Source: a virus. From it: a DNA stretch of 32,540 nt. The notes under the pieces are model-generated. The model did not search any database, was not told the DNA's origin, and worked only from the letters and a program-made list of their open reading frames with translations. Shown here piece after piece: positions 4,188 through 26,578 of the stretch (within the stretch, counting starts at the first letter, position 1; every line of letters starts with the position of its first letter). The position numbers and the translations under genes were made by a program. The stretch is taken from positions 1 through 32,540 of IMG/VR virus record IMGVR_UViG_3300008108_000557; one strand, given 5' to 3'.

Positions 4188-4925
4188 TCATCGTATACTG
4201 ATTCTGAAATATAATCTCTTAAAAAACTCTAAGTTGTCTTCCCAAAGCCAATCACTAAATGCTTCATAACCAAGTTCATCTATTCTTGATTGTATTGCCT
4301 CACTGGCTGCATATTCTATTTTATCTTCATTATAAACAATGTATTCGGATTCGTGTTTGTCATCACCTAACCACGTAAACATTCTACCACCATAGTGATT
4401 ATATTTTTCAGGATAAATAAAATATTTGTCTTCAACTACTTCTTCTTCATTAACGCCATCATCATAGTAACTTATATCACCATTTTCGTCTAAATATTTA
4501 TAAAGAGCTTCAGTTTGATAAGATATTTCTTCCCCATTTTGAATATTCCAAGCATCTTTCTTTCTTAGTTCATCTAAATACTCAATTTTTTGTCTTAGTA
4601 TTTCTCTTTTTTTAATACGATATCTTTCACTAGCATAATCAGAAACACTACGTGCTTTATTATCGTCAAATGCATCTACACTACTATGTTGGATATTTAA
4701 ATTACCTTCGATTTTAGAAATAACGTTAAGGTTTTTTATTTCTTTATTACTAGATAAATCCAAGTTGCCTTTAATTATTATGTCTTTATTTTTATAATAT
4801 CGTTTTAATAATGCAACATCACTGTTGAAGTATACCAAATTTTCTTTGAACTCTTCTGGTGTAAGTATTACAACGTTTTCAGTCTGCTCTTTAATTACCT
4901 TTTTTATTATCTGATTTAATGACAT
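4188..4925 (-). CDS. hypothetical protein with leader-like N-terminus; likely N-terminal part of a frameshifted gene
   Basis: The 245-residue reading begins MSLNQIIKKVIKE, an amphipathic basic leader ending in IxE, similar to leaders on five other proteins here (see findings). Residues about 50-80 resemble short beta repeats (IKGNLDLSSNKEIKNLNV). Residues about 95-140 are helical and charged, and the rest is acidic and aromatic (RMFTWLGDD, FSDWLWEDNLEFFKR). The last nine residues (LYFRISIR) look like out-of-frame read-through past a T6 run at 4221-4226; the neighbouring frame continues the protein to 3743. ATATTTAT lies 5 bases before the start (4931-4938). A virion location is inferred only from the leader. 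Confidence 0.7.
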   Translation of the reverse strand: MSLNQIIKKVIKEQTENVVILTPEEFKENLVYFNSDVALLKRYYKNKDIIIKGNLDLSSNKEIKNLNVISKIEGNLNIQHSSVDAFDDNKARSVSDYASERYRIKKREILRQKIEYLDELRKKDAWNIQNGEEISYQTEALYKYLDENGDISYYDDGVNEEEVVEDKYFIYPEKYNHYGGRMFTWLGDDKHESEYIVYNEDKIEYAASEAIQSRIDELGYEAFSDWLWEDNLEFFKRLYFRISIR

Positions 4926-4930
4926 ATGTT

Positions 4931-4938
4931 ATAAATAT
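4931..4938 (-). promoter_or_regulatory. ATATTTAT upstream motif
   Basis: In the direction of transcription ATATTTAT ends 5 bases before the ATG at 4925. The same octamer has the same 5-6 base spacing before the genes starting at 17403 (minus) and 11469 (plus). It could be a phage promoter element or an AT-rich translation signal; the sequence is very AT-rich, so chance is a serious alternative. Confidence 0.35.
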
Positions 4939-4991
4939 CTAAAAAAAGAATTGATTTATTCGTAACGTCACATAAATTATAATAAAACAAA

Positions 4992-4999
4992 ATATTTAT
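4992..4999 (+). promoter_or_regulatory. ATATTTAT upstream motif, plus-strand copy
   Basis: The octamer lies 31 bases before the first MGCGCK gene within the divergent gap 4926-5030. The rest of this gap is almost pure A and T with no Bacteroidota -7 element, so if the plus-strand genes have a local promoter this motif is the best visible candidate. Confidence 0.3.
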
Positions 5000-5030
5000 A
5001 TAAAAAATAAACTTTATAATAATTTTAATC

Positions 5031-5117
5031 ATGGGATGCGGATGTAAAAAAGCTCAAGAGCAAACACAACAAGAACAAACTCAACAAGACCAGTCAAATG
5101 CGTCACAAAATAAATAA
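5031..5117 (+). CDS. MGCGCK micro-protein 1, 28 aa
   Basis: ATG at 5031, TAA at 5115-5117. The protein is MGCGCK followed by a tail of almost only Gln, Glu, Thr, Asn and Ser (KAQEQTQQEQTQQDQSNAS). The first six residues, and the DNA just before the ATG (AATTTTAATC), recur in the next gene, so the two arose by tandem duplication or share a selected start region. The CxC pair could bind metal or be lipidated or oxidised; nothing proves this. Too short for most gene finders; support comes from the conserved paralogous start. Confidence 0.6.
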   Translation: MGCGCKKAQEQTQQEQTQQDQSNASQNK

Positions 5118-5131
5118 TTAAATTTTTAACC

Positions 5132-5242
5132 ATGGGATGCGGATGTAAAAATAACCAGCAACAGACTCAAACACAAACAAATAATGAGACCATTAAAAAG
5201 GCGGTTACAAAAATAGTAGAAAAATATTATAACAAGAAGTAA
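5132..5242 (+). CDS. MGCGCK micro-protein 2, 36 aa
   Basis: ATG at 5132, TAA at 5240-5242. It starts MGCGCKNNQQQTQTQTNN and, unlike its neighbour, ends in a basic amphipathic helix (TIKKAVTKIVEKYYNKK). The first 20 bases of the two ORFs are identical while the Gln-rich linkers differ, which is what selection on the MGCGCK head would produce. It lies 14 bases after the first copy. Function unknown. Confidence 0.62.
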   Translation: MGCGCKNNQQQTQTQTNNETIKKAVTKIVEKYYNKK

Positions 5243-5251
5243 TTATTTTGT

Positions 5252-5278
5252 TTAAGTGTTTAACTTAATTTTTATTTT
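5252..5278 (+). terminator. possible weak terminator after the MGCGCK pair
   Basis: TTAAGT (5252-5257) and ACTTAA (5263-5268) form a 6-bp AT-rich stem with a GTTTA loop, followed by a T-rich stretch (5269-5278). It lies 9 bases after the second micro-gene. The stem is weak, so partial read-through into the next plus-strand gene is possible. No other structure is seen in the 74-base gap to 5317. Confidence 0.35.
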
Positions 5279-5316
5279 CAATAAGATTAATTAAAATAAA
5301 CACTAACAAAAATAAA

Positions 5317-6198
5317 ATGGGATATATTGAATTCTACAATTTTTTAGATGGTAAAAATCTATGTAACATATTTGCAAACTTAATAGTAAAAAAAATAAAC
5401 GAGGAACTTCCTGATGCTAAAACTGATATTTCAGTTGTTAACGTCAGGAATTTTTTTATTGTAAAAGGCGTAACGACCTATAACGAACCATTAAACTTAG
5501 CGGAACTATTACAATCATTTTTAAAACAATTTGATGGGGAACTTTCAAATAAAGTTAGAGTAATTGATTCTATACTCTATAATAAAGAATTAGACCAAGA
5601 ACCATTAAACTTAAATTTATCATTTGATAAAACAATAGAAAAAATAAATGAATCTTTAAAGGAAGAATTAAACCCATATACAAAAGAAAAGATTTATTTT
5701 AATTTAAAAATACAACAAGAAACTAAACATATATATTACGACTGTCAACCTGAAAAAATTTCAACAGTTATTTCTATATTAGAAAAAAAATTTCCCAACT
5801 ATACCTTAATAAAATCTGATTTTTCTCAGGAGATATATGTTTCTGAAAAGATTTATGGTTTATCAAATGAGATGAGACTATACTATTTTCTATTACGGTC
5901 AATAAAAAATCACGTATTTAAACTTGGTTTAGGTAAAAGAATGACTATCTCTCTTTATTCTGACGTTAATATAAATAAAATGGATAATTTAAATGTTATC
6001 TTAAAATTAACTAATGATGACTACATAGTAAAAACGGATTGGTTGGAGTCTTTAATTTTAGATGTTTTCCCATTTGAATTTAAAAAATTAAAGGATATTT
6101 TCAAAGATAATTATTGTTTAGAAAATGAAATCTTGGGCGTCGAGACTAATTACTCGTTTAATAAACTAACTTATATCAATGATTTTGTATTAGTCTAA
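5317..6198 (+). CDS. hypothetical protein, 293 aa
   Basis: Plus-strand gene of the small plus island 5.0-6.2 kb. It is soluble with alternating helices and strands (RNFFIVKGVTTYNEPLNL at about 44-61 and a similar alternating pattern near KRMTISLYSD). No membrane span, cysteine cluster or catalytic motif stands out. It ends 9 bases inside the convergent glutaredoxin-like gene. I cannot assign a family. Confidence 0.75.
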   Translation: MGYIEFYNFLDGKNLCNIFANLIVKKINEELPDAKTDISVVNVRNFFIVKGVTTYNEPLNLAELLQSFLKQFDGELSNKVRVIDSILYNKELDQEPLNLNLSFDKTIEKINESLKEELNPYTKEKIYFNLKIQQETKHIYYDCQPEKISTVISILEKKFPNYTLIKSDFSQEIYVSEKIYGLSNEMRLYYFLLRSIKNHVFKLGLGKRMTISLYSDVNINKMDNLNVILKLTNDDYIVKTDWLESLILDVFPFEFKKLKDIFKDNYCLENEILGVETNYSFNKLTYINDFVLV

Positions 6199-6477
6199 AA
6201 GATAGTTTTTAACTAAATCTACGCCCTCGAATATATCTTGAAAATCTCTATCGGGGGCCAGTAGTTGTACGTCATGAGCATTATCATCACCATCCAAAGT
6301 CAATAACATTAAAGCGGGTACATACTCATTTTCAACAACCTTTACAAATTCATCATATTCTTCTTCATATTCTTGAATATCTCTTTCTATGAATGTTATT
6401 TTATTTTTTCTAAGCTCCTCTTTAATGTGTCCACAGTGTGGGCAACCTTTCATTGTGTAAACTACTGCAATTTTCAT
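6190..6477 (-). CDS. glutaredoxin/thioredoxin-fold protein
   Basis: The 95-residue protein starts MKIAVVYTMKGCPHCGHIKE: a beta strand followed by the redox motif CPHC (Cys12, Cys15). The cis-proline typical of the fold is at VPAL (Pro54). Such proteins use the dithiol to reduce disulfides; phage glutaredoxins often serve ribonucleotide reductase, but no reductase gene lies in this window. The segment after residue 33 is unusually acidic (EYEEEYDEF). The start overlaps the preceding gene's stop by 4 bases. The convergent end overlaps the plus-strand gene by 9 bases. Confidence 0.85.
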   Translation of the reverse strand: MKIAVVYTMKGCPHCGHIKEELRKNKITFIERDIQEYEEEYDEFVKVVENEYVPALMLLTLDGDDNAHDVQLLAPDRDFQDIFEGVDLVKNYLLD

Positions 6478-6818
6478 ATTTTATCTATTGTAAAAAATTT
6501 AGTTAATCCTGTTAATAATAAACTTATATTATTCAAATCAGATGTTAAAATAAATAGTTTATATGTTGATTCATTTTCTAGTTTTTGAAAATATATTAAA
6601 ACGGGATTGGGTCCCCAACCAACACAACCTTCAATATAATTAAATACTCCCCCATCATAAATTGTTGATGTCCAAATAAGTTTATTCTTATTAATTAATA
6701 TATCTAGCCCATTTTTTGTAATATTTCTAGTCCTAATAATGTTAGGATAAATAGGAATCTCATATTTGTTTTTGAACAAATCAAAAACATGTTCAGGTAT
6801 TTGTTGTTTTTTTTCCAT
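6474..6818 (-). CDS. hypothetical protein, 114 aa
   Basis: A small soluble protein, MEKKQQIPEHVFDLFKNK at the start, with a central strand-rich region (IWTSTIYDGGVFNYIEGCVGWG) and a hydrophobic, leucine-rich end. It is coupled to the glutaredoxin-like gene by a 4-base overlap and lies 9 bases after the PcfJ-like gene. No family is recognised. Confidence 0.65.
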   Translation of the reverse strand: MEKKQQIPEHVFDLFKNKYEIPIYPNIIRTRNITKNGLDILINKNKLIWTSTIYDGGVFNYIEGCVGWGPNPVLIYFQKLENESTYKLFILTSDLNNISLLLTGLTKFFTIDKI

Positions 6819-6827
6819 ATTAAATAA

Positions 6828-8567
6828 TTATGGTAATTCATCAAACCAGTTATTATCCGGTATTACTTCTTGCTCTAAAGCCATCAACATATCATTTTGC
6901 CAATATGAAAGTTCAGGTGTATATGTGTCCCATTGTGGTGTCATTGCAATCACTTTAGTTCCTTCGTGTTCCAAACTTCTAAACGTTGATTCTTGTTCAA
7001 TAACTTTACCACTACGATATTTTTTAATCAACTTTGGTAACTTTAAAGTTCCAAGTTTATAAAGAAGGTTGATATTTGCAAGTTGGATTTTAGCAACTTG
7101 TGAAAACTCTAATGATGGTGTTTCGTTAAATCTTGCCCTTTCTTGAACATTCAAGATCTCATTTTTTCTATACTGATACTCAACTGTAATTCTGTCATCA
7201 CCATCTGTTGATTCTTTACGAATAGAAAAAATCAAACAATCAGGTCTTTCTGAATATCCTCGAACACAATTTCTTTGATGTTGTGATTCTTTTTCGTAGT
7301 CCATAGTTTTTCTTAAAAGAACTGGGTAATATGTTTCACCTTGGTGTTCGATAGGAGTTTCTAAACTATCAACATCACCATAATGTCTTTCAACTTCACC
7401 TTTTCTGTATGATTGTAAAAGACGACTAAACTCTTCGTGTTCTAAATTAAAACTACTAATGTTGGTAAACTTAAATTTTACATCTTCACCCAAATTATTT
7501 AGATCCTTTTTCATTTCTAAATGGTCCAATAAGGTTCTAAATTTATCCGCATCAAAGTAGTTTATAATGTTTAAAATTCTATCTTTTTCTTTTGGTGTTA
7601 ATCTAACAGACATTCTATTTTGTAACCATTGATTATTTTGACGATAAAAACATTCGAAGTATCTTCCCATTTTTTTATCTTCCATCGGCATTGGATATGA
7701 ATTTGAAAAGAGCTCATCAAAATATTTGTTTTCAATTTTATTGAATCTATCTATTCCTAAAATATGATACATAAAATACATTCTATCAAAATCAACCCAT
7801 TCCATTTCGTTTAGAATTTGTTTTACTTTAGATCCTTTCATGTTGATTTGTTTCATCACGGTATCGACCAAATTCATATTTGATAATCTCAAATCTTTTT
7901 TTGAAATAAACATATGGGTAAACTTTCTCCAGTTGTTTGGGACTTTGATTTGATTTACTAAATAAAAAGTTAAACTATAAAATGATTCAGGTGAATCCCA
8001 CTCAAAATTCTGTGGGTTTTCAATACCCATTCGATCCCAAATTCTTTCTAAAAAGAAATAAAAATGACCTTGTGGTTTGACATTTTTGTCCAAGTGAACA
8101 TTATACAAAAAACTTTGTACAGCATTATAAGTCGGGTTGACTTTCATACTAGAACCTCTTTTTTGTTTTTTCTTTGTATGAAAACTTCCTGAGTAAAATA
8201 ACTTAGTTTTGAAGTTAAATGATATATAGTTGGTGGATTTTCTTTCAACAAAAAACTTATTACCAACTCTTCTACTTTTATGATAAATTTGATATTTTAT
8301 GGAAATTTTGTCATCGCTTTCTTCAATAAAGAATCTATATCTATCCATAAAAACTGCAGCACAAGGATTACCATAATGTTTTACAAATTCTTCCTCAGAA
8401 AAAAGTTGGGTGTCGCTATAATATCTTTCTTGTTTTTTTCCAATATAATACAGACCAAAATCATTTCTTGATGCATCATCGACATTACAAAAGTTGTGAT
8501 ACAAATCAACTCTGTAGTTTTTTTTCTCAATAAACTTATGAAATGTTTTACCTTCTACTTCTAACAT
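6828..8567 (-). CDS. PcfJ-like protein
   Basis: I start at ATG 8567 (579 residues; MLEVEGKTFHKFIEKKNY); a TTG at 8582 would add five residues but lies inside a promoter and terminator. The C-terminal part, about residues 410-500, matches the PcfJ-like pattern: YPVLLRKTMDYEKESQHQRN, then NCVRGYSE with Cys434, LIFSIRK, RITVEYQ and NVQERARFNETP. PcfJ-like proteins occur on conjugative elements and phages; their biochemical role is not established. The N-terminal 400 residues are basic and aromatic and unassigned. It has its own Bacteroidota-type promoter 4 bases upstream. Confidence 0.75.
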   Translation of the reverse strand: MLEVEGKTFHKFIEKKNYRVDLYHNFCNVDDASRNDFGLYYIGKKQERYYSDTQLFSEEEFVKHYGNPCAAVFMDRYRFFIEESDDKISIKYQIYHKSRRVGNKFFVERKSTNYISFNFKTKLFYSGSFHTKKKQKRGSSMKVNPTYNAVQSFLYNVHLDKNVKPQGHFYFFLERIWDRMGIENPQNFEWDSPESFYSLTFYLVNQIKVPNNWRKFTHMFISKKDLRLSNMNLVDTVMKQINMKGSKVKQILNEMEWVDFDRMYFMYHILGIDRFNKIENKYFDELFSNSYPMPMEDKKMGRYFECFYRQNNQWLQNRMSVRLTPKEKDRILNIINYFDADKFRTLLDHLEMKKDLNNLGEDVKFKFTNISSFNLEHEEFSRLLQSYRKGEVERHYGDVDSLETPIEHQGETYYPVLLRKTMDYEKESQHQRNCVRGYSERPDCLIFSIRKESTDGDDRITVEYQYRKNEILNVQERARFNETPSLEFSQVAKIQLANINLLYKLGTLKLPKLIKKYRSGKVIEQESTFRSLEHEGTKVIAMTPQWDTYTPELSYWQNDMLMALEQEVIPDNNWFDELP

Positions 8568-8571
8568 AGAA

Positions 8572-8603
8572 CAAAGATACAAAAAACCTCCGACTTATTC
8601 AAC
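8572..8603 (-). promoter_or_regulatory. Bacteroidota-type promoter for the PcfJ-like gene
   Basis: On the minus strand TATCTTTG (8572-8579) matches the -7 consensus TAnnTTTG exactly. A GTTG (8600-8603) stands 20 bases upstream as a one-mismatch -33 element. The -7 box ends only 4 bases before the ATG at 8567, so the transcript would be leaderless or nearly so. The -33 element and spacer fall inside the terminator hairpin of the upstream gene. Confidence 0.6.
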
Positions 8604-8609
8604 CGGAGG
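8581..8609 (-). terminator. rho-independent terminator after the 95-aa gene
   Basis: Minus-strand RNA forms CCTCCG (8604-8609) paired with CGGAGG (8587-8592) around an 11-base loop, followed by six T (8586-8581). It ends the transcript of the gene at 8624-8911, 15 bases after its stop. Confidence 0.8.
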
Positions 8610-8623
8610 ATTTAAATTTTTAA

Positions 8624-8911
8624 TTAATTCATAAATATTTTACCCATATGATGATCAATAAATGGATTCACCACTTTTGACAACTCACTTTCAGTTTTAT
8701 TAATATTTAATTTTATTAATAATTCTATTATTTGTGTTCTGGTCGGTGCAATTTCCTTATCATCTTCTAAATTTTTTTCAGTTATTTTTTTTATTTCAGA
8801 AAAAAAAAGTTCAGGTTCAATTTTACCTATGAGTATATTTAATTGGTCTGGATTTTTTTTAAAAAATCCTGTGAAATTGTTCATGTAAATATCAATATCA
8901 ATTTTGCTCAT
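8624..8911 (-). CDS. hypothetical protein, 95 aa
   Basis: Small soluble protein (MSKIDIDIYMNNFTGFFKKN...). The second half, from about residue 50, is a run of charged helices (EKNLEDDKEIAPTRTQIIEL). It is a single-gene unit: followed by a strong terminator and preceded by a 47-base gap with a possible promoter. No family is recognised. Confidence 0.65.
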   Translation of the reverse strand: MSKIDIDIYMNNFTGFFKKNPDQLNILIGKIEPELFFSEIKKITEKNLEDDKEIAPTRTQIIELLIKLNINKTESELSKVVNPFIDHHMGKIFMN

Positions 8912-8931
8912 ACTTAATTATTTATCAAAAA

Positions 8932-8939
8932 CAAATGTA
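8932..8939 (-). promoter_or_regulatory. possible Bacteroidota -7 element
   Basis: TACATTTG on the minus strand fits TAnnTTTG and lies 20 bases before the ATG at 8911. No TTTG occurs at the right distance: the nearest copies are 12 and 24 bases upstream. The 47-base gap also holds a 10-bp inverted repeat (TTAATTATTT / AAATAATTAA). The promoter call is therefore weak. Confidence 0.3.
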
Positions 8940-8958
8940 ATAAAAAAATTACAAATAA

Positions 8959-10308
8959 TTAAACAAAAAGATGTAAATCATCCATTTCCACTTTATCTTT
9001 TATACTTTGTGGTATGGAATTTTGATTACTTCCTTTCATATTAACAACAGATAATTTTGGCATTTGTGCAATACAATCAGGTAACATTTGGATGTTAGGA
9101 TTGTCAGGTAACGATAAGAACTGAAGTTTTTGTAAGTTACAAATACTTTCAGGGATAGACGCCACGCAACTAACTAAGTGAAGAGCAGTAAGTTCTTTAA
9201 AGTTGCCGATAGTTGCCGGTATGTTTAAATCTAATTTTGAACCTGATTTGGCAATAAACTCAAGTCTTTGGATATTTTCAGGTAACGTTTCAAAAAATTC
9301 ATCGAATCCGTAAAGTGCGATAAATTTAGACGATGAATCGCCAGGATAATTAACTGTCACTTTTTTACCTTCGTTAGAACTTAAACCTTTCATGAATTGT
9401 GGTTTGAAATATTCTTTCATCCCTTCTTCATTTGTATTTAAGAAGTCTACTAAATCAATTTGTCTATCCGATGGGTCCATAAACTGATTAGATGGGAAGT
9501 GGAATTGGTAACGAAGTGCCGGAAGACCAGATACATCACCAAATTCTCTATCTCCTGTGTGTTTTTGACCTTTGTTTGGTATTACCACATATAAAGGTCC
9601 GTCTTTAATGTATCTATCAAACCAAGTAAGTCCCGGTGAGGATGTACACCATCTTGTCTCACCTTTAGATGGTTCTTGGTATGAACCACCATAGAAACAA
9701 GCTGCGTCTTTACCAAGTTGACCTTTATCTTCGATTTTAGCGATAGTCCAATCAGTACCACGATAAACAATCTCAGCACCTGGATGTTGGTATGTTTTAG
9801 ATGCTTCTTTCTTCTCGTCTTTGGTTGCTTTAGTTTTTTCTAAACTGAAGTCTTTTACATTATCGTAAAGTGTTTCAGGGGTCAACTTATTAATATCACG
9901 AAGTTCTTGTGGTAATCTGTTTTTAAATCTTTCAAATTTTTGAAGGTCACCTGTAACTTTGTACAAGTCCTCCATAAATAACTCTTGGTATTGTTGATAA
10001 GCCCCTTTATATCTTGGTGAGTCAGGTTCAACGTCCAAATTTGTTGGGATTACAAAGTTTTTAAGTAACCATTGGGTGTACTTACCAATCTTAACTTTGT
10101 CCATATCCTCAGGTTTGGAATTATCAATGTCCATACCTTGTGGAAATTTAGATGTAGGGTCCGCAGCAATAATTGCAAATAAAGTCTCAAAAGGCATCAT
10201 ACCTTTTTTACCTTTTTCTTTTGGTTTTACGAATTTGTCAAATAAGACTTGAAATCTTGAACTCTCAATAATCAAATCTTTAAGGATGTTGGTAAATCTA
10301 ATAGCCAT
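8959..10308 (-). CDS. leucine-rich repeat protein with WCTS module and leader-like N-terminus
   Basis: 449 residues. It begins MAIRFTNILKDLIIE, an amphipathic leader ending in IxE like five other proteins here. A middle module around residues 185-290 has TDWTIAKI, then ETRWCTSSPG (Trp220-Cys221), DGPLYVVIPN, RYQFHFPSNQFMDPSD. Its layout (aromatic-Cys, Tyr, LYVV, YQFH) recalls the PcfJ domain of the gene two positions downstream, but that is only an eye comparison. From about 340 to the end are four to five leucine-rich repeats (LPENIQRLEF, ELTALHLVS, KLQFLSLPDNPN, LSVVNMKGS). Leucine-rich repeats bind proteins. ATATTTAT lies 18 bases upstream (10327-10334). A virion or host-interaction role is inference. 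Confidence 0.75.
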   Translation of the reverse strand: MAIRFTNILKDLIIESSRFQVLFDKFVKPKEKGKKGMMPFETLFAIIAADPTSKFPQGMDIDNSKPEDMDKVKIGKYTQWLLKNFVIPTNLDVEPDSPRYKGAYQQYQELFMEDLYKVTGDLQKFERFKNRLPQELRDINKLTPETLYDNVKDFSLEKTKATKDEKKEASKTYQHPGAEIVYRGTDWTIAKIEDKGQLGKDAACFYGGSYQEPSKGETRWCTSSPGLTWFDRYIKDGPLYVVIPNKGQKHTGDREFGDVSGLPALRYQFHFPSNQFMDPSDRQIDLVDFLNTNEEGMKEYFKPQFMKGLSSNEGKKVTVNYPGDSSSKFIALYGFDEFFETLPENIQRLEFIAKSGSKLDLNIPATIGNFKELTALHLVSCVASIPESICNLQKLQFLSLPDNPNIQMLPDCIAQMPKLSVVNMKGSNQNSIPQSIKDKVEMDDLHLFV

Positions 10309-10336
10309 TGTCGTGTAATTTATTATATAAATATTA

Positions 10337-10344
10337 CAAAGTTA
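10337..10344 (-). promoter_or_regulatory. possible Bacteroidota -7 element
   Basis: TAACTTTG on the minus strand fits TAnnTTTG and lies 28 bases before the ATG at 10308. No TTTG stands at the -33 position. The ATATTTAT motif lies just downstream (10327-10334), so two kinds of signal may be stacked in this 50-base gap. Confidence 0.3.
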
Positions 10345-10358
10345 AGAAAAATGTTTAA

Positions 10359-11198: not shown

Positions 11199-11219
11199 AG
11201 GTAAAATATAGGGTATTTA

Positions 11220-11262
11220 TTATAATCTGTCAATGAAAATTTTTTTAAAAAAAAGATTATAA
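11220..11262. repeat. AT-rich inverted repeat
   Basis: TTATAATCT (11220-11228) is repeated inverted as AGATTATAA (11254-11262), enclosing a run of seven T followed by eight A that can itself pair. It lies between the divergent Dam-like gene and the ncRNA promoter. It could act as a bidirectional terminator-like hairpin or as an easily melted DNA element; with the DnaA-box match 45 bases away, an origin-like role is worth testing. Confidence 0.6.
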
Positions 11263-11266
11263 ATGT

Positions 11267-11297: not shown

Positions 11298-11306
11298 TAC
11301 TGTTGA

Positions 11307-11429: not shown

Positions 11430-11456
11430 CCCTCCTATTTTTAGGGGGGTTTTTAT
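11430..11456 (+). terminator. rho-independent terminator of the ncRNA
   Basis: CCCTCCTA (11430-11437) pairs with TAGGGGGG (11442-11449), including one G-U pair, around a TTTT loop, and is followed by TTTTTAT. AAA just upstream can extend the stem into the T-tract. It separates the ncRNA from the gene at 11469. Confidence 0.88.
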
Positions 11457-11462
11457 ATTTAT
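11455..11462 (+). promoter_or_regulatory. ATATTTAT upstream motif
   Basis: The octamer ends 6 bases before the ATG at 11469, directly after the ncRNA terminator, so it is the only visible candidate signal for separate expression of that gene. The same motif at the same distance precedes two minus-strand genes that encode similar leaders. Confidence 0.35.
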
Positions 11463-11468
11463 AATAAT

Positions 11469-11990
11469 ATGAAATTACTTAAAGTCGTAAAAAATATAAT
11501 ATTAGAAAGAAAACAACTTTTAGATAGGTACGATGTTGGGGGTATCAATGTCGATATATTTTATAATGACCATTCAAATTTAGCCATTAGCAATTCAAAA
11601 TATGGTAGACAACCTATTCAGGAAATTTTAAATTCCATGGTTGAAGTACTTGAAACTATAGTTAAAGTTTGTTTAGAAATATTATCTAAACCTAAAAAAT
11701 TTGAAGATAAAGATAGATCAATTTTAGTTATCGATAATTTAATAGGTATTGACTATCATTTTTGGGTTAATCAATCTAAATCGGGTAATTTATTTTTAAC
11801 CATAAACTCATCAATATCCCATCCAAGAAGTTTACCTAAAGCACAAAATGATAAAAAAATATTAATCACAAAAATTGGTGACACATTAATTAGTGAACAA
11901 TTTAATTTAAACAACTTTACTAAAATTGTTAATGGCGATATAATTATTTATTATGAAAAAGAAAGAAGCAACACAAGTAACAGGGTGTAA
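11469..11990 (+). CDS. hypothetical protein with leader-like N-terminus, 173 aa
   Basis: Begins MKLLKVVKNIILE, a basic amphipathic leader ending in IxE, like five other proteins in the window. The body is mixed alpha/beta (INVDIFYNDHSNLAIS; KSGNLFLTINSSISHP; GDIIIYYEKER) without recognisable catalytic residues. It follows the ncRNA terminator and overlaps the next plus-strand gene by 38 bases. The leader suggests a virion-associated protein; this is inference. Confidence 0.7.
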   Translation: MKLLKVVKNIILERKQLLDRYDVGGINVDIFYNDHSNLAISNSKYGRQPIQEILNSMVEVLETIVKVCLEILSKPKKFEDKDRSILVIDNLIGIDYHFWVNQSKSGNLFLTINSSISHPRSLPKAQNDKKILITKIGDTLISEQFNLNNFTKIVNGDIIIYYEKERSNTSNRV

Positions 11991-13086: not shown

Positions 13087-13726
13087 GAAGGATAACTACT
13101 TAATTGTTTTATTTAAAAATAAGAAAAGAAGAAAAATTATCAAACGTTACTCAACTGAAAAAAACGCAATTGATAATTTTAATCGTATTTTAAAAGAAAA
13201 TGATGTCTTATTTGATAAGGTAATTGAGAACGCAACTCCGGTTAATTATGAAGTGGGATTGTTATCTAAAAATTCTAGTTTCCAAAAAAGTCTATTCATA
13301 ACTGATGACTTGGGTAGAAATAATCCTGTTAATTTAGAGAATCCTGAATATGTATTCTTAGATATTAAAAAATATAAAGTAGAGGAAACCATTTTTGATT
13401 GGCAAACTCAATCTAAAATAACATTAGAACAATTAATCAAAAAATATTGTAAATCTAAAGATTTAAAGAACATATTTACATTACACAATAAACTTTGTAT
13501 TCAAATAGATGAAGATGTTTCAGTATTTTCATTAAAAGACAAAGAGGAATCTGATAGACTCCTCGATGTTTTACAAAATAAGTTTTTAGATTTAAAACGA
13601 ACAGATGCCATTTTTGTTCGTGATGTGTCAAACGCACAAAGAAAATGGTTATACCAAGTATTGGAAGATAAAGGTTTTGATAAGAAAAGACTTTATCGTT
13701 TAAAAACTACTTTTTCAAAAAGGTAA
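13085..13726 (+). CDS. hypothetical protein, 213 aa
   Basis: Begins MKDNYLIVLFKNKKRRKIIK: a strand followed by a very basic stretch. The middle (VEETIFDWQTQSKITLEQLI) and the C-terminus (RTDAIFVRDVSNAQRKWLYQ, then KKRLYRLKTTFSKR) are charged and helical. The basic ends suggest nucleic-acid contact, but no known fold is recognised. Its start overlaps the dnaJ start by 2 bases on the opposite strand, and its end overlaps the convergent 73-aa gene by 20 bases. Confidence 0.7.
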   Translation: MKDNYLIVLFKNKKRRKIIKRYSTEKNAIDNFNRILKENDVLFDKVIENATPVNYEVGLLSKNSSFQKSLFITDDLGRNNPVNLENPEYVFLDIKKYKVEETIFDWQTQSKITLEQLIKKYCKSKDLKNIFTLHNKLCIQIDEDVSVFSLKDKEESDRLLDVLQNKFLDLKRTDAIFVRDVSNAQRKWLYQVLEDKGFDKKRLYRLKTTFSKR

Positions 13727-13928
13727 AATCAACATTACCAATCGATACAACACATTTACTATCGTTTGATTGGTAATTTAGTGTCCTCATTAAACTTTGG
13801 TATTTAGATTCATCTAAAGTTACTACAACACCAATGTCTCCATCATTAATGAATGTGTTTTCTAAAATTTCTACAGCTTCGGCTAGTTTTGTTAAATGAT
13901 CCCTAAAGTTCTCAATATCCTTTGCCAT
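13707..13928 (-). CDS. hypothetical protein, 73 aa
   Basis: MAKDIENFRDHLTKLAEAVE gives an N-terminal helix followed by two or three strands (IGVVVTLDES, CVVSIGNVDFTFLKK). It is last in a run of overlapping minus-strand genes (37-base overlap with the upstream gene). Unknown function. Confidence 0.6.
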   Translation of the reverse strand: MAKDIENFRDHLTKLAEAVEILENTFINDGDIGVVVTLDESKYQSLMRTLNYQSNDSKCVVSIGNVDFTFLKK

Positions 13929-14104
13929 ACGGTATATTTTTTTTCAACAAATTCTGTATTTTTTATTTTGTTTCGGTCAAAAGATTTAAGTTGTTGCGAT
14001 AGTTGTTTTTTGTACTTTTCGTTCTGTAACTGGTCTCTTTTTCTTTCCTCATCAAGCTGATTCAGCTCCTTCAGTAACTCCGGTGTTATCTTCTTCTGGT
14101 TCAT
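13892..14104 (-). CDS. hypothetical coiled-coil protein, 70 aa
   Basis: Highly charged helix through about residue 55 (LLKELNQLDEERKRDQLQNE), then a short hydrophobic end VWQRILRTLGII that could dock on a membrane or a partner. It overlaps both neighbours (53 bases upstream, 37 downstream), an arrangement typical of co-translated phage genes. Unknown function. Confidence 0.55.
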   Translation of the reverse strand: MNQKKITPELLKELNQLDEERKRDQLQNEKYKKQLSQQLKSFDRNKIKNTEFVEKKYTVWQRILRTLGII

Positions 14105-14486
14105 TTTGTAACAAATTAGTTAGTTCTTCTACATCAAATTTTAACCCTTTCAAGTTTTCTAAGTTTTCAGTTTCAAAAATACTTTTAAGTTCTTGTACTT
14201 TTAACTTAAATAATCTTTCTTTTTCTTCTCTTTCAATATTAGTTTTAATTATCTTATCAATAGATACCTCAATAGAATCAACCAAACTTAATTTATTTTC
14301 ACATACAAACGAAGTGATTAGTCTACCTTCTTTATCGTTATTTTGAAGTATTTCAACGCCTTCAGGTAATTTTTTTAACATAACCCATGACGTTGGGAAT
14401 ATCATATCAAACGTGATGTATGTCTGTAAGATTCTTACAGAATTTAAATACTTTGATGTTTTAGATACGAATTGACTATAAATCAT
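14052..14486 (-). CDS. hypothetical protein, 144 aa
   Basis: The N-terminal half is ordered (ITFDMIFPTSWVMLKKLPEG), a central helix follows, and the last 20 residues are acidic (QNEPEEDNTGVTEGAESA). No membrane span or cysteine pattern. The start overlaps the upstream gene by 4 bases. Families of this shape occur in other large phages, but I cannot name a function. Confidence 0.65.
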   Translation of the reverse strand: MIYSQFVSKTSKYLNSVRILQTYITFDMIFPTSWVMLKKLPEGVEILQNNDKEGRLITSFVCENKLSLVDSIEVSIDKIIKTNIEREEKERLFKLKVQELKSIFETENLENLKGLKFDVEELTNLLQNEPEEDNTGVTEGAESA

Positions 14487-14680
14487 GATAGTTGGTAAAT
14501 TAAAAATGTTATTATGTATGTGATGAATAATCCGTGAGTAATCGACTCAATATTTGTTATTTCAAAAGGTTTTGGTGGGTCTGATAAAAATGATTTAAAA
14601 AACCCAACCGTTAACCTAATAGTTGCTAATAGTGAAAATATAAAAATAAAAGTTGTATAAAACTCTATTTGATTAAGCAT
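14483..14680 (-). CDS. small membrane protein, 65 aa
   Basis: Two hydrophobic spans, about residues 6-28 (FYTTFIFIFSLLATIRLTVG) and 44-64 (ITHGLFITYIITFLIYQLS), separated by a short loop with DPPKPFE. The topology would suit a holin or accessory membrane protein. It overlaps the histone-like gene by 8 bases and the downstream gene by 4 bases. Confidence 0.65.
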   Translation of the reverse strand: MLNQIEFYTTFIFIFSLLATIRLTVGFFKSFLSDPPKPFEITNIESITHGLFITYIITFLIYQLS

Positions 14681-14855
14681 CTTTTTCTGACTTAGTGTGT
14701 GTTAAAATTTCTCCTCTTAGTTTTTGAGCAGCTGCTTTTAATTCTTGAGAAAGTTTTCTTGCTCTAATACCTGCAGATTTGTTTCCACTATAAAATTTTG
14801 TTGTATCTACCGATAACGCCTCAACTAAGTTTTTAATTTCTTCTAATGTTTCCAT
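14673..14855 (-). CDS. histone H1-like (Hc1-type) DNA-binding protein
   Basis: The 60-residue protein has the layout of Bacteroidota Hc1-type proteins: an N-terminal helix LEEIKNLVEALSVDTTKFY, a GNKSAGIRARK centre (about residues 24-34) and a second basic helix KLSQELKAAAQKLRGEI. Related bacterial proteins carry a similar (G)NKxAGxRARK segment and are thought to bind and compact DNA. A phage copy could help pack or condense phage DNA or interfere with the host nucleoid. It lacks the long lysine-rich tail of chlamydial Hc1. It is preceded by a 68-base AT-rich gap without a clear promoter. Confidence 0.75.
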   Translation of the reverse strand: METLEEIKNLVEALSVDTTKFYSGNKSAGIRARKLSQELKAAAQKLRGEILTHTKSEKDA

Positions 14856-14923
14856 TTTTTATTTTTTTATGTGATTTATTTTTATTTTAAAATTATATTG
14901 TTTATTGGATATGTAAATAATAA

Positions 14924-15415
14924 TTACATTATTTTCAAAGATCTCTCAAGCACTTTATAAATGTCAGTAAAGATTTCAATATCTGATTTTGTTTTATTTG
15001 AAGACTTATCAAATATTTGTCTAAAAAAATTGTCTATTTGTTCTTTTATTTTTTGATCTGGTTGATTATAGAAAACTTCAAAGAAAAAGGATTCAAAGAA
15101 TTCGGCATCATTTTCGTTAAATTTAAAATCAATAGACTCTTTGTTAAAGTTCAATATTGTTTTATTCCAACACCATTTAAAATGTTCTTTTTTTTGGTCT
15201 GTAGTCATTCCAACTTTAGTTTCTTTATTATCACTAAAATCATCACCTAAGTAAGTTTCTTTTAATAAATTTAAAAATGAAAAACAAAAATCTCTAAAAA
15301 GTTCTGTAAGTTCTGGCGTGATATTATTGGCAAGATACCAAGCATTAATGTCTTCTTTATCCATTGGTTTAGCCAACCAATCAAAAAAACGACCCATATT
15401 ATTATTAGTTTCCAT
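14924..15415 (-). CDS. hypothetical protein, 163 aa
   Basis: Acidic, aromatic, helical protein: METNNNMGRFFDWLAKPMDK at the start, then FRDFCFSFLNLLKETYLGDD and a phenylalanine-rich stretch (AEFFESFFFEVFYNQ). No membrane span or motif is recognisable. It follows the large 648-aa gene in the operon direction only after a reversal of order: it lies 41 bases downstream of that gene's stop. Function unknown. Confidence 0.7.
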   Translation of the reverse strand: METNNNMGRFFDWLAKPMDKEDINAWYLANNITPELTELFRDFCFSFLNLLKETYLGDDFSDNKETKVGMTTDQKKEHFKWCWNKTILNFNKESIDFKFNENDAEFFESFFFEVFYNQPDQKIKEQIDNFFRQIFDKSSNKTKSDIEIFTDIYKVLERSLKIM

Positions 15416-15456
15416 GTTCTAATAATAATATGGGTCTTAATAAATTGTAGGTTTAA

Positions 15457-17403
15457 TTATTGCGTTTTTTGGTTATAACCAATTAAGTTTTTCATTTTTT
15501 CCATTTCTGAAATAACTTTTTTACTTTCTTTTGACTCATCAACCGCATTTAAAACACTCTGAGCAGTTTTTTTACCTTTTTTAGATTTTAAAGTACCTCC
15601 CTCAGTTTCTTCTCCTGCTTGGTCAACAGGTTGTGTTTGTCTTTTATAGGACGCCTCTTGTTGTTCTTGGCCATATAGGTTTTCCTTATAGTTTTTGAAA
15701 AATCTATCTCCAACTTCACTTGGTACTACATTACCTAAAGGTTTCCCGTCTTCATCAAAAACCGCATTTCCTGTAGTTCTATGACCTTTTATATATTTTT
15801 CAATTTTTTCATCGTTAGGTTTAATTTCATCATAAACTAAATTAGTCATACCAGGATAAGAAAAAGCATCAATATATTCATCAACAGCATCAGATGGTGT
15901 ATATTTTTTAAGTTTTTCTTTTCTATTATCTAAGTCATAATTTCCTTCTGGAAAATTTGTTGGGTTTTCTTCATATTCTCCCTTACTCATATCTTTTAGA
16001 TAATCTTTCATTTTTTTTGTGACACTTTTAATATAGTTGTCATTTTCTTTTTTTGACCTACCTAAAGAAGATTTAAGTACGTTTTGTGCACTTGGGGATT
16101 TTGATTTTTTCTTTTCTTCTTTCACAATGTTTTCAATTATATCAACCATTTCTGATTCTGTAAAATAAAATTTAGATTCTTTTCTTAAAATTTTAAAATC
16201 TTCACCATCAATTTTATTGTTATTATTTTTATCAATTAATTTTTGTCTTCCGTATAGTTTTTCTTTTACTTCTTTCTTATTTGACCTTAATTTTTTGAAA
16301 TCCTTTCCGTCTATCTCGTCATAAGGTTTTGCTTGTTTTGCTATATATTTTTGACCTTTTGATAATTTTTTTGCCTCATACATATCACTTTTAGGTCCAC
16401 ATTCATTACACTCCTCTTCTTCAAGTTCCTCATCTTTAACTCTTTCTCTACCAACATTTCCTGAAAGTTCGGCACCTACAGTACCACCCAAACCAGCCAT
16501 GATAAGTGCGGCTTGTAATACGTCATCACCTGCCATTGTTCCCATAAAATAACCAACAACCGCAGCCAAAGTTCCAAAAACACCATAACTAATTAATTTT
16601 CCTTTTAAGTACTCATTTCTTGTAATTTCTTTTTTTCCTCGACTATCGCTATAGTCATAATATTTATAATCTTCACTAATATCAGATGACATTGTCATTG
16701 CATTCTTAATATCTTTAGCCGCTTTAGGGTTTTCTTTAAAGAAATCTACTAATTCTTGGAACTCATCAATTTTATTTAGTTTTTTAAGTTTAACCATAGA
16801 AAAGTCACTTTCTCTTTCAATATCTTCAGATTGGTTTATCCACTCTTCTTCATCGTATTCTTCATATAAATTGATATCGTCCATTTCTTCAAAATCATCA
16901 TCATCACTATAATTAGAAATTTGAAAATCGGACACTATGTTATCAATATAATCCTCAAGTTTTCTAAAATCACTATCAGATAAATTGTCAATCTCTTCTT
17001 TGTTGTCTTTAAAAAAATCTTCGATCATTTCTTCAAATTCTTCAACGTCTTCGGCGTAATCTGAAATTTCATCGATTTCATCTTGAATAAATTTAAGATT
17101 ATTTTTTACATCACTATCTTCGTCATCACCCCTAAGCAAATTTTCAATATCTTCTATAGACATCGGGCTTTTAAATTTCATTTTACCAAATCTAGGGTGT
17201 CCGTCATCCATACCACCTAGTTCATGTATATTACCTTCATACATACCACTACATTCAGAACAAACCCCTTCATACATGTTAGAACCACACTCATTACAGA
17301 TTTCTTGTTTTTCCTCAAATATTCTGCGTTTAACGTTAGAAATTTTATCTGAAATCTCTTCAGACACTACTCTATTGACAATTTTTATAATTTCTCTATT
17401 CAT
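15457..17403 (-). CDS. large multi-domain protein with zinc ribbon, two membrane spans and EF-hand; candidate virion protein
   Basis: 648 residues. It begins MNREIIKIVNRVVSEE, a leader of the kind shared by six proteins here (VxE). Cys36/39 and Cys48/51 form a four-cysteine zinc ribbon, followed by a very acidic region (about 85-200). Two hydrophobic segments lie at about 271-290 and 295-313 (TLAAVVGYFMGTMAG, ALIMAGLGGTVG). CNEC occurs at 332-335. Residues 391-402 (DKNNNNKIDGED) fit a calcium-binding EF-hand loop with acids or Asn at positions 1, 3, 5, 9 and 12. A second leader-like helix ESEMVDIIENIVKEE lies at about 416-430. The end reads MKNLIGYNQKTQ. ATATTTAT lies 5 bases before the start. 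The mixture suggests a head-internal or injected protein, but this is inference. Confidence 0.7.
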   Translation of the reverse strand: MNREIIKIVNRVVSEEISDKISNVKRRIFEEKQEICNECGSNMYEGVCSECSGMYEGNIHELGGMDDGHPRFGKMKFKSPMSIEDIENLLRGDDEDSDVKNNLKFIQDEIDEISDYAEDVEEFEEMIEDFFKDNKEEIDNLSDSDFRKLEDYIDNIVSDFQISNYSDDDDFEEMDDINLYEEYDEEEWINQSEDIERESDFSMVKLKKLNKIDEFQELVDFFKENPKAAKDIKNAMTMSSDISEDYKYYDYSDSRGKKEITRNEYLKGKLISYGVFGTLAAVVGYFMGTMAGDDVLQAALIMAGLGGTVGAELSGNVGRERVKDEELEEEECNECGPKSDMYEAKKLSKGQKYIAKQAKPYDEIDGKDFKKLRSNKKEVKEKLYGRQKLIDKNNNNKIDGEDFKILRKESKFYFTESEMVDIIENIVKEEKKKSKSPSAQNVLKSSLGRSKKENDNYIKSVTKKMKDYLKDMSKGEYEENPTNFPEGNYDLDNRKEKLKKYTPSDAVDEYIDAFSYPGMTNLVYDEIKPNDEKIEKYIKGHRTTGNAVFDEDGKPLGNVVPSEVGDRFFKNYKENLYGQEQQEASYKRQTQPVDQAGEETEGGTLKSKKGKKTAQSVLNAVDESKESKKVISEMEKMKNLIGYNQKTQ

Positions 17404-17408
17404 AACTA

Positions 17409-17416
17409 ATAAATAT
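17409..17416 (-). promoter_or_regulatory. ATATTTAT upstream motif
   Basis: The octamer lies 5 bases before the ATG at 17403, the same spacing as at 4931-4938, and fills the 21-base gap to the upstream gene. Role undetermined. Confidence 0.35.
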
Positions 17417-17424
17417 CTTTAAGT

Positions 17425-18006
17425 TTACAAATTATCGTTTAATGATGATAATATGATATTTTTTATTTTTGACTCACTTAAACCAGTTTTTAATGAGATA
17501 TTCTTAATCGATTCGTACATTGTATTTTTTTTAGGTTTTGATGTAATGTTAATAGCGTTAATATCTCCTTGATTACAGTATGGGAATGTCTTACAATCTT
17601 CTTTAACTGACACAAAACCTCCTCCAGGTATTTGAGTTTTTTTCCAAGATCTACCTTTTCCTTTTAACGTATTACCTTTCATATTTACGTCTTGAAATCC
17701 GGGGACATCGTAAGCACCAACAGAACTACTGGTCGTTGCCTCTGTGGCCTCAATTTTTTTAGGTTCATCACAAATACATTCGGATTTAACTCTATCACAA
17801 CTATCACAATACTCTTCTTCTCTAACGACTTTAACTTTTGGTCTTTTGTATTCACTTCTTGCCACATCGTCTTTAGCGAACATACTAAATGCCGGACCAC
17901 TATAAGCGCCAGCGGAAGATGCCCCTGTAGCCTCTTTTGATTCTTCTTTCTTCTTTTTTAACGCTTCAGTAATTAAAGATTCTATATACTCTTTGTTTGT
18001 TATCAT
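17425..18006 (-). CDS. hypothetical protein with duplicated EATxxSSxGAY motif; candidate virion protein
   Basis: I choose ATG 18006, which overlaps the upstream stop by 4 bases (ATGA); a start at 18033 would add only nine residues. The 193-residue protein begins MITNKEYIESLITE then A, a leader ending in IxE. A 16-residue motif occurs twice: EATGASSAGAYSGPAF (25-40) and EATTSSSVGAYDVPGF (89-104). Between them is a cysteine cluster CDSCDRVKSECIC (67-79) that could bind zinc. The C-terminal 30 residues form a basic helix (NISLKTGLSESKIKNIILSS). Low-complexity Ser/Gly/Tyr repeats of this kind are known as linkers in phage structural proteins, from memory; function is unassigned. Confidence 0.7.
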   Translation of the reverse strand: MITNKEYIESLITEALKKKKEESKEATGASSAGAYSGPAFSMFAKDDVARSEYKRPKVKVVREEEYCDSCDRVKSECICDEPKKIEATEATTSSSVGAYDVPGFQDVNMKGNTLKGKGRSWKKTQIPGGGFVSVKEDCKTFPYCNQGDINAINITSKPKKNTMYESIKNISLKTGLSESKIKNIILSSLNDNL

Positions 18007-18251
18007 TTTACATTTTTTAAGGCCGTCTGCCATTGATTCTTTTTAGTCCACAATTGGTAATAGAACTCAGTCATAATCTTAACGACTATGTCGTTTATGT
18101 CACCTCTTAGGGTTCCGTTTTTAATTTCTTTCTTTAAAATGTCAATAATAGATTTCTCATATTGTTTAACAGTGGTCGCTTTAAGGAAATCCTTAATTTC
18201 TTGTCTAGCAATATTTTCTACTTGTTTTTTATCTTGTTGTGAAAGAGCCAT
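18003..18251 (-). CDS. hypothetical helical protein, 82 aa
   Basis: MALSQQDKKQVENIARQEIK opens an almost wholly helical, basic protein ending FYYQLWTKKNQWQTALKNVK. No membrane span or cysteine. It is coupled on both sides: its ATG shares one base with the upstream stop, and its stop overlaps the next ATG by 4 bases. Unknown function within the virion/lysis operon. Confidence 0.7.
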   Translation of the reverse strand: MALSQQDKKQVENIARQEIKDFLKATTVKQYEKSIIDILKKEIKNGTLRGDINDIVVKIMTEFYYQLWTKKNQWQTALKNVK

Positions 18252-18661
18252 TATTTAAGTATTGAAAATACAGTTAATGTGGTTAACAATGCCCCACCAA
18301 TAATCTCAATGAATGCGTTTTTTGTTTTTAATTTTTTAACTTGTTTTCTTAAATCTTCATTTTGTTTTTCTACAATACCAAATTTTTCTTTTTCTTTTTC
18401 AATTTGTAATTCGTAGTTTTTTTCTTTAATCTCCATAGTCGTTATAATACTACCTTGTACTTCAACTTTCTTATTTGTTTCTGTTAATTCTTTAACGGTT
18501 AATTTATGGATTGCAGTTAAAGAATCTAATCTATTTAGATCCAATGCCATTTGTTTTGCCACCTTATAAGGAAGACAGATTGTTGTTGTATCAATTTTAC
18601 CTTTTTGAGAAAACCCAATAATAGGTAAAAATAACAATAAACTAAGTAATAATGTTTTCAT
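18251..18661 (-). CDS. secreted coiled-coil protein with C-terminal membrane span; spanin-like candidate
   Basis: Start chosen at ATG 18661 because it gives a clean signal peptide (MKTLLLSLLLFLPIIGFSQ); the frame is open to 18697 but that prefix would bury it. The 136-residue protein then has a short region with ICLPYKVAKQMALDL, a long coiled coil (about 45-112) and a C-terminal hydrophobic helix (AFIEIIGGALLTTLTVFSIL). With the adjacent 116-residue protein it makes a pair of coiled-coil envelope proteins near the amidase, as expected for spanins that disrupt the outer membrane at lysis. There is no clear lipobox Cys, so the outer-membrane form is uncertain. Confidence 0.65.
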   Translation of the reverse strand: MKTLLLSLLLFLPIIGFSQKGKIDTTTICLPYKVAKQMALDLNRLDSLTAIHKLTVKELTETNKKVEVQGSIITTMEIKEKNYELQIEKEKEKFGIVEKQNEDLRKQVKKLKTKNAFIEIIGGALLTTLTVFSILK

Positions 18662-18662
18662 A

Positions 18663-19013
18663 TTAATATTTGTATCTATCGTGAAATAATTTATCAATTT
18701 CTGAAGGTTTCATATCTGAAATCTTTTCCCCTTGTTCTTTATAATATTCTTTTATTATTGTTTTTTGATTTTGTACTTTAGCAATTGTTGAATCTATATG
18801 TGATAATTCTTTTTTATATCCTTCAATTTGTTTGTCAAGTTTTTTTTGATTTTCAATAATCAAATTAATGTCTTTGTCTAATTGTTCCAATTTATACTTA
18901 TCCAACTCTGACATTTCAGGTTTTGGTGTTGCCAAATACACGATACCATATAACAATACAACTCCTATTATTATTGCTACGGCATATTTCCAATATTTAG
19001 TTATATATTCCAT
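18663..19013 (-). CDS. membrane-anchored coiled-coil protein; inner spanin-like candidate
   Basis: ATG at 19013 follows the upstream TAA by 1 base; ATG 19025 is an alternative. The 116-residue protein has one N-terminal span (about 10-27, YAVAIIIGVVLLYGIVYLA), then a long coiled coil (PEMSELDKYKLEQLDKDINL onward) and a conserved-looking end SEIDKLFHDRYKY. This is the topology of an inner-membrane spanin (Rz type): short cytoplasmic start, one span, periplasmic coiled coil. The neighbour downstream could be the partner. The assignment rests on topology and position only. Confidence 0.65.
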   Translation of the reverse strand: MEYITKYWKYAVAIIIGVVLLYGIVYLATPKPEMSELDKYKLEQLDKDINLIIENQKKLDKQIEGYKKELSHIDSTIAKVQNQKTIIKEYYKEQGEKISDMKPSEIDKLFHDRYKY

Positions 19014-19014
19014 A

Positions 19015-19581
19015 TTATTTTTCATCAGATTTTGCAACAGTTTTCTTTCTTGTTGCTATTACTTTAGCCCATTTAGATTTAAACTTTTCATAGAAAGAAG
19101 TCAATTTATTAACTAATTCAGTTAAATTTTCATCTAACTTAATCATGTCTCCATTTATATACACACCATTATTTTCACCTATTGAGTAGAAAAATTCTAA
19201 ATCAAAATCAATAACTTTTCCACTCCATTGAACTTCGTTTGGGTACATATTTAAAACTCCAAAATCAGATAAATCAGAAACCTCACTAACAAACTCATCC
19301 ATAGTTTCTTGGAATGCGGTTTTTTCTTCAGTTGTTAATTCTACATCTTTTTTTTCTTTACCATGTAATGATAATAATCCACCTGAAATTCTGTAAGTTT
19401 TACTTTTGTCTTTTTTTACTTTTTCGGTATCAATATTTTCTGTACCATCAACTTCATATTCTGTCGAATCGTCTTTTATTTTATTTTCAATACTCTTACC
19501 CAAATTTGTTGCTTCAGGTTGCTCCATTAACATTCTAGAACGTTTAAGGAGTGTTTTTAATTCGTCGTATTCGTTAATCAT
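19015..19581 (-). CDS. hypothetical protein with leader-like N-terminus, 188 aa
   Basis: Begins MINEYDELKTLLKRSRMLME then QPEATN: a helical leader ending in LxE, like five other proteins in this window. After a polar, acidic linker (about 25-60) comes a mixed domain with YRISGGLLSLHGKEKKDVEL and NEVQWSGKVIDFDLEFFYSI, and a basic C-terminal tail (IATRKKTVAKSDEK). It overlaps the amidase stop by 8 bases. Probably virion-associated by its leader; no enzyme motif is seen. Confidence 0.65.
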   Translation of the reverse strand: MINEYDELKTLLKRSRMLMEQPEATNLGKSIENKIKDDSTEYEVDGTENIDTEKVKKDKSKTYRISGGLLSLHGKEKKDVELTTEEKTAFQETMDEFVSEVSDLSDFGVLNMYPNEVQWSGKVIDFDLEFFYSIGENNGVYINGDMIKLDENLTELVNKLTSFYEKFKSKWAKVIATRKKTVAKSDEK

Positions 19582-26556: not shown

Positions 26557-26578
26557 CATAATTTGGTAATTAAATGGT

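Follow-up and report, generated by a model that had tools for sequence, protein, structure and literature searches.

Bacteriophage T4 is known to target proteins to its head by means of a short leader that is then cleaved off, its prohead protease gp21 cutting after L/I-x-E; the giant phiKZ-like phages also process many head proteins, at other motifs (PMC9026906, PMC5694885). In the leader of T4 internal protein III (IPIII), residues 4 and 7 direct targeting and residues 8 and 10 processing (PMC9026906); counted back from the terminal E (P1), these are P7, P4, P3 and P1, and the ipIII leader, MKTYQEFIAE, has this P3, P4, P7 geometry. The 32,540-nucleotide IMG/VR record IMGVR_UViG_3300008108_000557 (the window; uncultured virus, 29.7% GC) encodes six proteins for which a preliminary description had reported unrelated bodies behind a short amphipathic leader ending in (I/L/V)xE. 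The analysis presented here indicates that these leaders are very probably T4-type capsid-targeting propeptides, cut by gp21, which mark a large and variable set of head-packaged proteins.

The window covers part of the genome of a giant, T4-like lake phage. Its SbcC-like protein (24226-26631, -) matches more than 200 IMG/VR loci, one of them on a 291,867-bp record at 93% identity (G001, also L003), and further matching relatives include several records of 229-304 kb. Gp23 (PF07068) was found in those relatives tested. Genes were called by a purpose-written gene caller, and start choices are approximate.

Leaders and bodies in the window

All six leaders were found in the sequence where the preliminary description had placed them, and the bodies have no family in common, as it had stated. 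The (I/L/V)-x-E end falls at residues 13-15 in five leaders and at residue 20 in the remaining one. P3 and P4 are hydrophobic in all six, P7 and P8 in five, and E is present in all; the leader 19581- (genes are named by start and strand) fails at P7. V at P3 (VSE), a slight widening of the T4 rule, occurs in one of the six and in some orthologues. The start of 18006- is a Met internal to the open reading frame 17425..18033; it is the likely start, because orthologues begin at the equivalent Met (MDKKYIDFIVSE, MDKELLHKYISE). The features are as follows.

4188..4886 (-): body, gene 4188-4925; no confident Pfam family (LPD13 0.024, under cut-off)
4887..4925 (-): leader MSLNQIIKKVIKE, gene 4188-4925; in 26 orthologue loci V at P4, I at P3 and E do not vary, whereas P2 does
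4931..4937 (-): TATTTAT late-type promoter core, gene 4188-4925; in 25/25 orthologues with full upstream sequence
8959..10263 (-): body, gene 8959-10308; uncharacterised conserved domain and C-terminal leucine-rich repeats (LRRs)
10264..10308 (-): leader MAIRFTNILKDLIIE, gene 8959-10308; E15 conserved in 100% and I13 (P3) in 98% of 68 orthologue loci, P2 variable
10327..10333 (-): TATTTAT late-type promoter core, gene 8959-10308; in 67/67 orthologues with full upstream sequence
11456..11462 (+): TATTTAT late-type promoter core, gene 11469-11990; in 6/6 orthologues
11469..11507 (+): leader MKLLKVVKNIILE, gene 11469-11990; distant homologues begin MELLSVLKNIILE, MNLLPLLKSIIVE
11508..11990 (+): body, gene 11469-11990; no family
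15457..17358 (-): body, gene 15457-17403; CxxC...MYE segments and an EF-hand-like stretch
15460..15534 (-): C-terminal tail with VISE/MEKMKNLIGYNQKTQ, a class E motif also present at the C-terminus of scaffold gp22
16117..16164 (-): internal class A motif FTESEMVDIIENIVKE (residues 414-429), gene 15457-17403
17359..17403 (-): leader MNREIIKIVNRVVSE, gene 15457-17403; orthologue leaders of similar character, often of other sequence
17409..17415 (-): TATTTAT late-type promoter core, gene 15457-17403
17425..17964 (-): body, gene 17425-18006; no family; leader-like C-terminus LSESKIKNIILSSL
17965..18006 (-): leader MITNKEYIESLITE, gene 17425-18006
19015..19521 (-): body, gene 19015-19581; folded part starting at about residue 59; no match to a known fold
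19522..19581 (-): leader MINEYDELKTLLKRSRMLME (class E), gene 19015-19581
21266..21285 (-): tandem late-type promoter cores at the head of the operon 21247->17425, which holds leader genes 19581- and 18006-

Within this operon genes overlap or abut.

Leaders, late-type element and protease in the relatives

The bare hydrophobic-x-E rule gave no separation in the window (22 N-terminal matches against 14-20 in internal segments), and stricter patterns were therefore adopted. The strict pattern matched 5 of 45 window genes, against 0-1 matches in internal segments and 0.3 after shuffling. Four of the five are leaders of the preliminary description; no promoter element precedes the fifth, 29654-30511 (-), which is probably a spurious match. 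Leaders 18006- and 19581- fall outside the pattern, the latter belonging to a looser, different class. A search of large relatives for more such leaders, as proposed earlier, returned dozens per genome: 50/321, 45/343, 36/302 and 43/351 genes (12-16%) in four relatives of 281-304 kb, compared with 1-5 matches in internal segments and about 2.7 after shuffling. The excess over internal segments is approximately 10-20 fold. Unsupervised expectation-maximization on the N-termini assigned a motif to about 35% of them; the log-likelihood was 1201, versus 386 for internal segments. The strict pattern matched 3/133 genes in the unrelated, AT-rich giant Bacillus phage G, 2/129 in 100 kb of the T4 genome, one being the known gp24 leader, and 9/192 called genes in Flavobacterium phage immuto.

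Recurring leader classes were recognized in the relatives: A 'MKKVIRLTESDLTRIVRRVINE', B 'MKIIITESQYKxLxE', C 'MKxLIKxILKE', D 'ITEEEKxRILxMHE' and the looser E 'xxRLxxLMxxE'. The families may also be summarized as A 'IRLTESDLxRIVRRVxxE', B 'KIIITESQYxxLxE', C a short 'xxIIKxILKE', D 'EEKxRIxxLHE' and E 'RLxxLM..xE'. Classes A, B and D are absent from internal segments. With a class A weight matrix, 57 matches above 11 bits lie at N-termini and 6 elsewhere; shuffled proteins gave no match. The internal class A motif of the 15457-17403 protein scores 16.3 bits (20.1 in an orthologue; best shuffled score 10.1) and is a possible internal cut site. In G001 the 50 leader proteins fall into 48 unrelated body clusters, so that the same leader type stands on unrelated bodies. 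Conversely, related bodies may carry different classes, as in G001_208618 (MKIIITESQYRFLVE/NTQEIDQILEKIG) and G003_48611 (MKKIIRLTESDLTRIVNRVINE/NQEEVDRILDKIS); bodies related to that of window gene 4188-4925 carry class A leaders in G003 and G004. Identical residues of class A cores are written with different codons at 0.37-0.42 of sites, versus 0.50-0.56 expected for unrelated draws. Because synonymous codons are near saturation, the peptides are kept by selection and not by recent copying. A mobile DNA cassette made of promoter plus leader was tested for and is not supported, upstream DNA identity being barely above that of shuffled sequence and synonymous codons near saturation.

The leader genes are also associated with a TATTTAT(A) element resembling the familiar late promoter of T4, TATAAATA. 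In the window, TATTTAT lies within 60 bp upstream of only 5 of 49 genes, namely four of the leader genes plus the gene that opens the operon in which the other two lie; the chance of finding four leader genes among the five, calculated post hoc, is 2e-5. When only genes preceded by a gap of 30 nt or more are considered, the element stands before 78/86 leader genes and 196/579 others (p = 1e-24). Many of these others look like structural genes, or like leaders that the strict pattern did not catch; random 50-mers carry the element at 2%. It precedes all orthologues of 10308-, 4925- and 11469+ with full upstream sequence, as listed above, and is found 5' of the gp22, gp21 and tail sheath genes of G001. 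The element may act as a late promoter shared by leader and head genes.

The prohead protease, whose absence from the genome would have spoken against the proposal, is encoded in the 93%-identical G001, together with gp23, and in other large relatives. Peptidase_S77, the family of gp21, was detected in six of the eleven relatives searched first, G001 included. Twelve long contigs picked by the class A DNA pattern contain both Peptidase_S77 and Gp23 in nine cases and neither in three, and of ten records with orthologues of window proteins all six of at least 230 kb encode the protease. Profile matches have E values of about 1e-22 to 1e-28, and the ELxHP and SSRGxGS motifs (His and Ser regions) align with T4 gp21. 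The co-occurrence of protease and leaders in related phages is consistent with a link, without proving it. Candidate sites of the same type are present in the head proteins themselves: gp23 of the relatives carries 'LKHLKVIKE/D' and 'ENQAS(H/F)LINE/A' at about residue 60, the T4 gp23 propeptide being 65 residues long (PMC5694885), and gp21 of G001 contains 'VIKE/S'.

The head-targeting and gp21-processing interpretation put forward in the preliminary description is supported by the T4 CTS (capsid targeting sequence) geometry of the leaders, by the occurrence of (I/L)xE in the lineage's own gp23 and gp21, and by the common late-type element. The data suggest that dozens of different proteins may be carried in the heads of these phages. 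According to the proposed mechanism, the leader would be a short amphipathic helix by which a late-expressed protein docks to the scaffold core while the prohead is growing, and the gp21-type protease would then cut after (I/L/V)xE, freeing the protein inside the head. Several interchangeable leader families would in this way serve to load dozens of proteins, variable and for the most part unrelated, which are presumably used inside the next host cell.

Candidate cargo proteins and alternative explanations

Few Pfam matches were obtained for a set of 94 leader proteins. The families are lysozyme, M23, LysM, NlpC/P60, CHAP, ferritin-like, WYL, LRR and EF-hand; a thymidylate synthase was matched by one protein, which may be a false positive of the pattern. 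WYL domains were the only defence-system families that PADLOC detected, and homology to T4 internal protein or Alt bodies was found neither among the six window proteins nor among the families listed for the 94 (for PHROGs, 25 of 53 families). In G001, 37 of the 50 leader genes cluster at 200-275 kb, away from the structural module. Leader genes are less often common to relatives than other genes (20/45 versus 146/218 in the closest comparison).

The LRRs of the 10308- protein match LRR_14 at E 7.6e-7, below the Pfam cut-off, and Foldseek matches them to LRR proteins at E 1e-4 to 1e-3. Ahead of them, the protein (8959-10308, -) and its orthologues (L281-L355) share a strongly conserved 'GKDAACFYGG..ETRWCTSSPG..WFDRYIKDGPLYVVIP' domain, for which no Pfam match was found. 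The EF-hand-like stretch of the 17403- protein matches EF-hand_7 at 9.9e-6 in a close orthologue, again below cut-off; injection of the LRR and EF-hand proteins would be a further, tentative step. The 17403- protein (15457-17403, -) has, in addition, a class E tail that follows VISE at the C-terminus and is conserved, and its CxxC...MYE segments recur; gp22 scaffold of G001 contains many MYE(D)DE repeats, and the recurring segments are possibly repeated protease sites. For 19581-, structure prediction gave a leader helix (residues 4-20), a low-confidence linker (23-55) and a folded domain, and a fold search with this body found no match. Leader-like tails also occur at C-termini, in the protein 17425-18006 (-), LSESKIKNIILSSL, and in G001 150229-150948, NESLEFVIKNVLSSL.

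Three other explanations were weighed. The leaders could mark structural or assembly proteins of the head, such as scaffold, vertex or completion proteins, and not injected cargo; some leader genes do adjoin gp23 (149774 and 150229 in G001), and a similar leader is borne by T4 gp24, a shell protein. The position of most G001 leader genes away from the structural module and their lower conservation between relatives make this explanation unlikely. Alternatively, the leaders could be docking helices for some other phage assembly (a transcription complex, a membrane site, a compartment), never cut, with E serving as a helix cap. Their amphipathic character would fit, a helix is predicted in both modelled proteins, and the residues conserved in class A exceed the needs of a protease; however, I/L-x-E sites are also found in gp23 and gp21, P2 is free where P3 and E are fixed, as in a protease site, the late-type element is common to the gp21, gp22 and sheath genes, and a tag of equal geometry is present on a cyanophage virion enzyme (see below). 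Uncut docking helices are accordingly rated as quite improbable. Finally, amphipathic N-termini ending in hydrophobic-x-E might be common by chance in AT-rich, K/E/I-rich proteomes, as the weak result of the bare rule in the window and the three strict matches in phage G could indicate. This explanation is already disfavoured, and hardly credible, in view of the excess of strict leaders over internal segments, the restriction of classes A, B and D to N-termini, the conservation of peptides despite near-saturated synonymous differences, and the independent association with the promoter element.

Several observations weigh against capsid targeting by cleaved leaders. The window, a 32.5-kb fragment, contains neither head genes nor Peptidase_S77 in a Pfam search; the relatives form one lineage, so that the co-occurrence of protease and leaders is phylogenetically confounded, and cleavage and virion presence in this lineage are predictions from sequence. 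The strict patterns fix some hydrophobic positions, which are therefore not independent evidence. Leader 19581- deviates, in that P7 is not hydrophobic and the propeptide is longer in many relatives, many orthologues carrying (L)LxE/Q in it. In the window TATTTAT lies 12-38 nt from the start codon and could be a translation-initiation feature. Finally, the test of the leader/body register is weak: for 116 body pairs, identity is 0.19 at register 0 and 0.17 at -1, versus about 0.08, and pairs of different class peak at -1 (0.25) and not at 0 (0.07). The precise leader/body junctions therefore depend on a few clear cases.

Some leader classes resemble the ends of scaffold core proteins. Class E motifs occur at 2.7 per 10,000 residues at N-termini, 5.5 at C-termini and 0.4 internally, and the C-terminal matches include gp22 in three of four relatives, the fourth gp22 having a similar FMRMKDLMTKIK; the gp22 C-terminus '..FMRMRDLMSKM' resembles class E. 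A small gp67-like protein between gp21 and gp22 ends in 'ITESKIDEVIE', like class A and B leaders. In immuto, the C-terminus of gp22, 'RWQKLAGIIK', is similar to the leaders 'RMQFLAGIITE' and 'MQKLAGIITE'. Because of the resemblance of class E to the gp22 end and of classes A and B to that of the gp67-like protein, leaders may mimic scaffold ends, a speculative proposal. More tentatively than the targeting function itself, one may envisage an expandable, multi-address loading of the head, in which leader families would copy the ends of core proteins and direct dozens of swappable proteins to different core sites; the next host would then receive them as an arsenal made in advance.

If head targeting by cleaved leaders is correct, the head-packaged protein set of a widespread group of uncultured giant phages could be read from the genome alone, and leader plus late-type element would provide a first functional handle on proteins mostly without known family. 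The packaged proteins might act before any phage gene is expressed; T4 IPI acts against a restriction enzyme. The natural leader classes would make core-directing features testable, and could supply new tags with which proteins are loaded into phage heads in laboratory work.

Some observations concern the host and other genes. TAnnTTTG, the Bacteroidota promoter type, is enriched 5' of genes in the relatives, and a Bacteroidota host therefore fits; Flavobacterium phage immuto is among the closest cultured relatives by capsid. Words of this type, ATCTTTGT/TATCTTTG, are enriched upstream in G001, G003, G004 and G005 (L087-L147), which suggests host-type promoters for another gene class. The window also encodes a PcfJ-like protein (6828-8582, -; Pfam E 3.4e-6), which has neither a leader nor the late-type element.

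Comparison with known systems

The leaders described here share with the CTS of T4 IPI, IPII, IPIII and Alt a length of 10-20 residues, hydrophobic P3, P4 and P7, and an L/I-x-E end, and in both systems variable bodies stand behind a shared leader, that of T4 being cut by gp21 (PMC9026906, PMC3012670). The low sharing of leader genes between relatives likewise recalls the variability of T4 internal proteins (PMC3012670), and the proteins with leader-like sequences at both ends (17425-18006 and G001 150229-150948) recall T4 Alt, whose two ends are both processed (PMC9026906). T4, however, has a handful of internal proteins and essentially one leader family, whereas 36-50 leaders in about five classes are predicted per genome here, and, unlike in T4, leader classes differ between related bodies.

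The giant phages phiKZ, 201phi2-1 and SPN3US are similar in size class, in having a gp21-related protease and in cutting many head proteins after E, 19 in 201phi2-1 (PMC9026906) and 8 in SPN3US (PMC5694885). In the phiKZ type, many propeptides exceed 100 residues and cleavage follows S/A-x-E or A-x-E; the leaders described here show neither trait, being short and ending in I/L/V-x-E, and the accompanying gp23 is T4-like.

Phage immuto (MW353175), isolated on Flavobacterium sp. LMO8, has T4-type gp21 and gp23, an IVSE/A site in gp23 and several leaders, including MENFDLKKFLVENKLTxNSKxLxE and MQKLAGIITE. Three of its genes (L155:1803-2318, L154:7632-8932) carry the former or a variant close to it; this class was not encountered in the relatives of the window. 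The immuto genome is of 160 kb, has nine strict leaders in its 192 called genes and uses other leader families. In cyanophage S-SM1, the cytidylyltransferase T4-GC190 was detected in purified virions by mass spectrometry (PMC3037559); it begins with MKKFSAFLNE/A, which has the T4 CTS geometry, and lends the targeting interpretation support from another lineage. It is the single clear leader case among 162 called genes, compared with dozens per genome here. In a literature search that left most subscription journals outside its range, no phage was found described as carrying dozens of these leaders divided among several classes. Targeting by a short cleaved leader, established for T4, would be extended in these phages to a far larger set of proteins.

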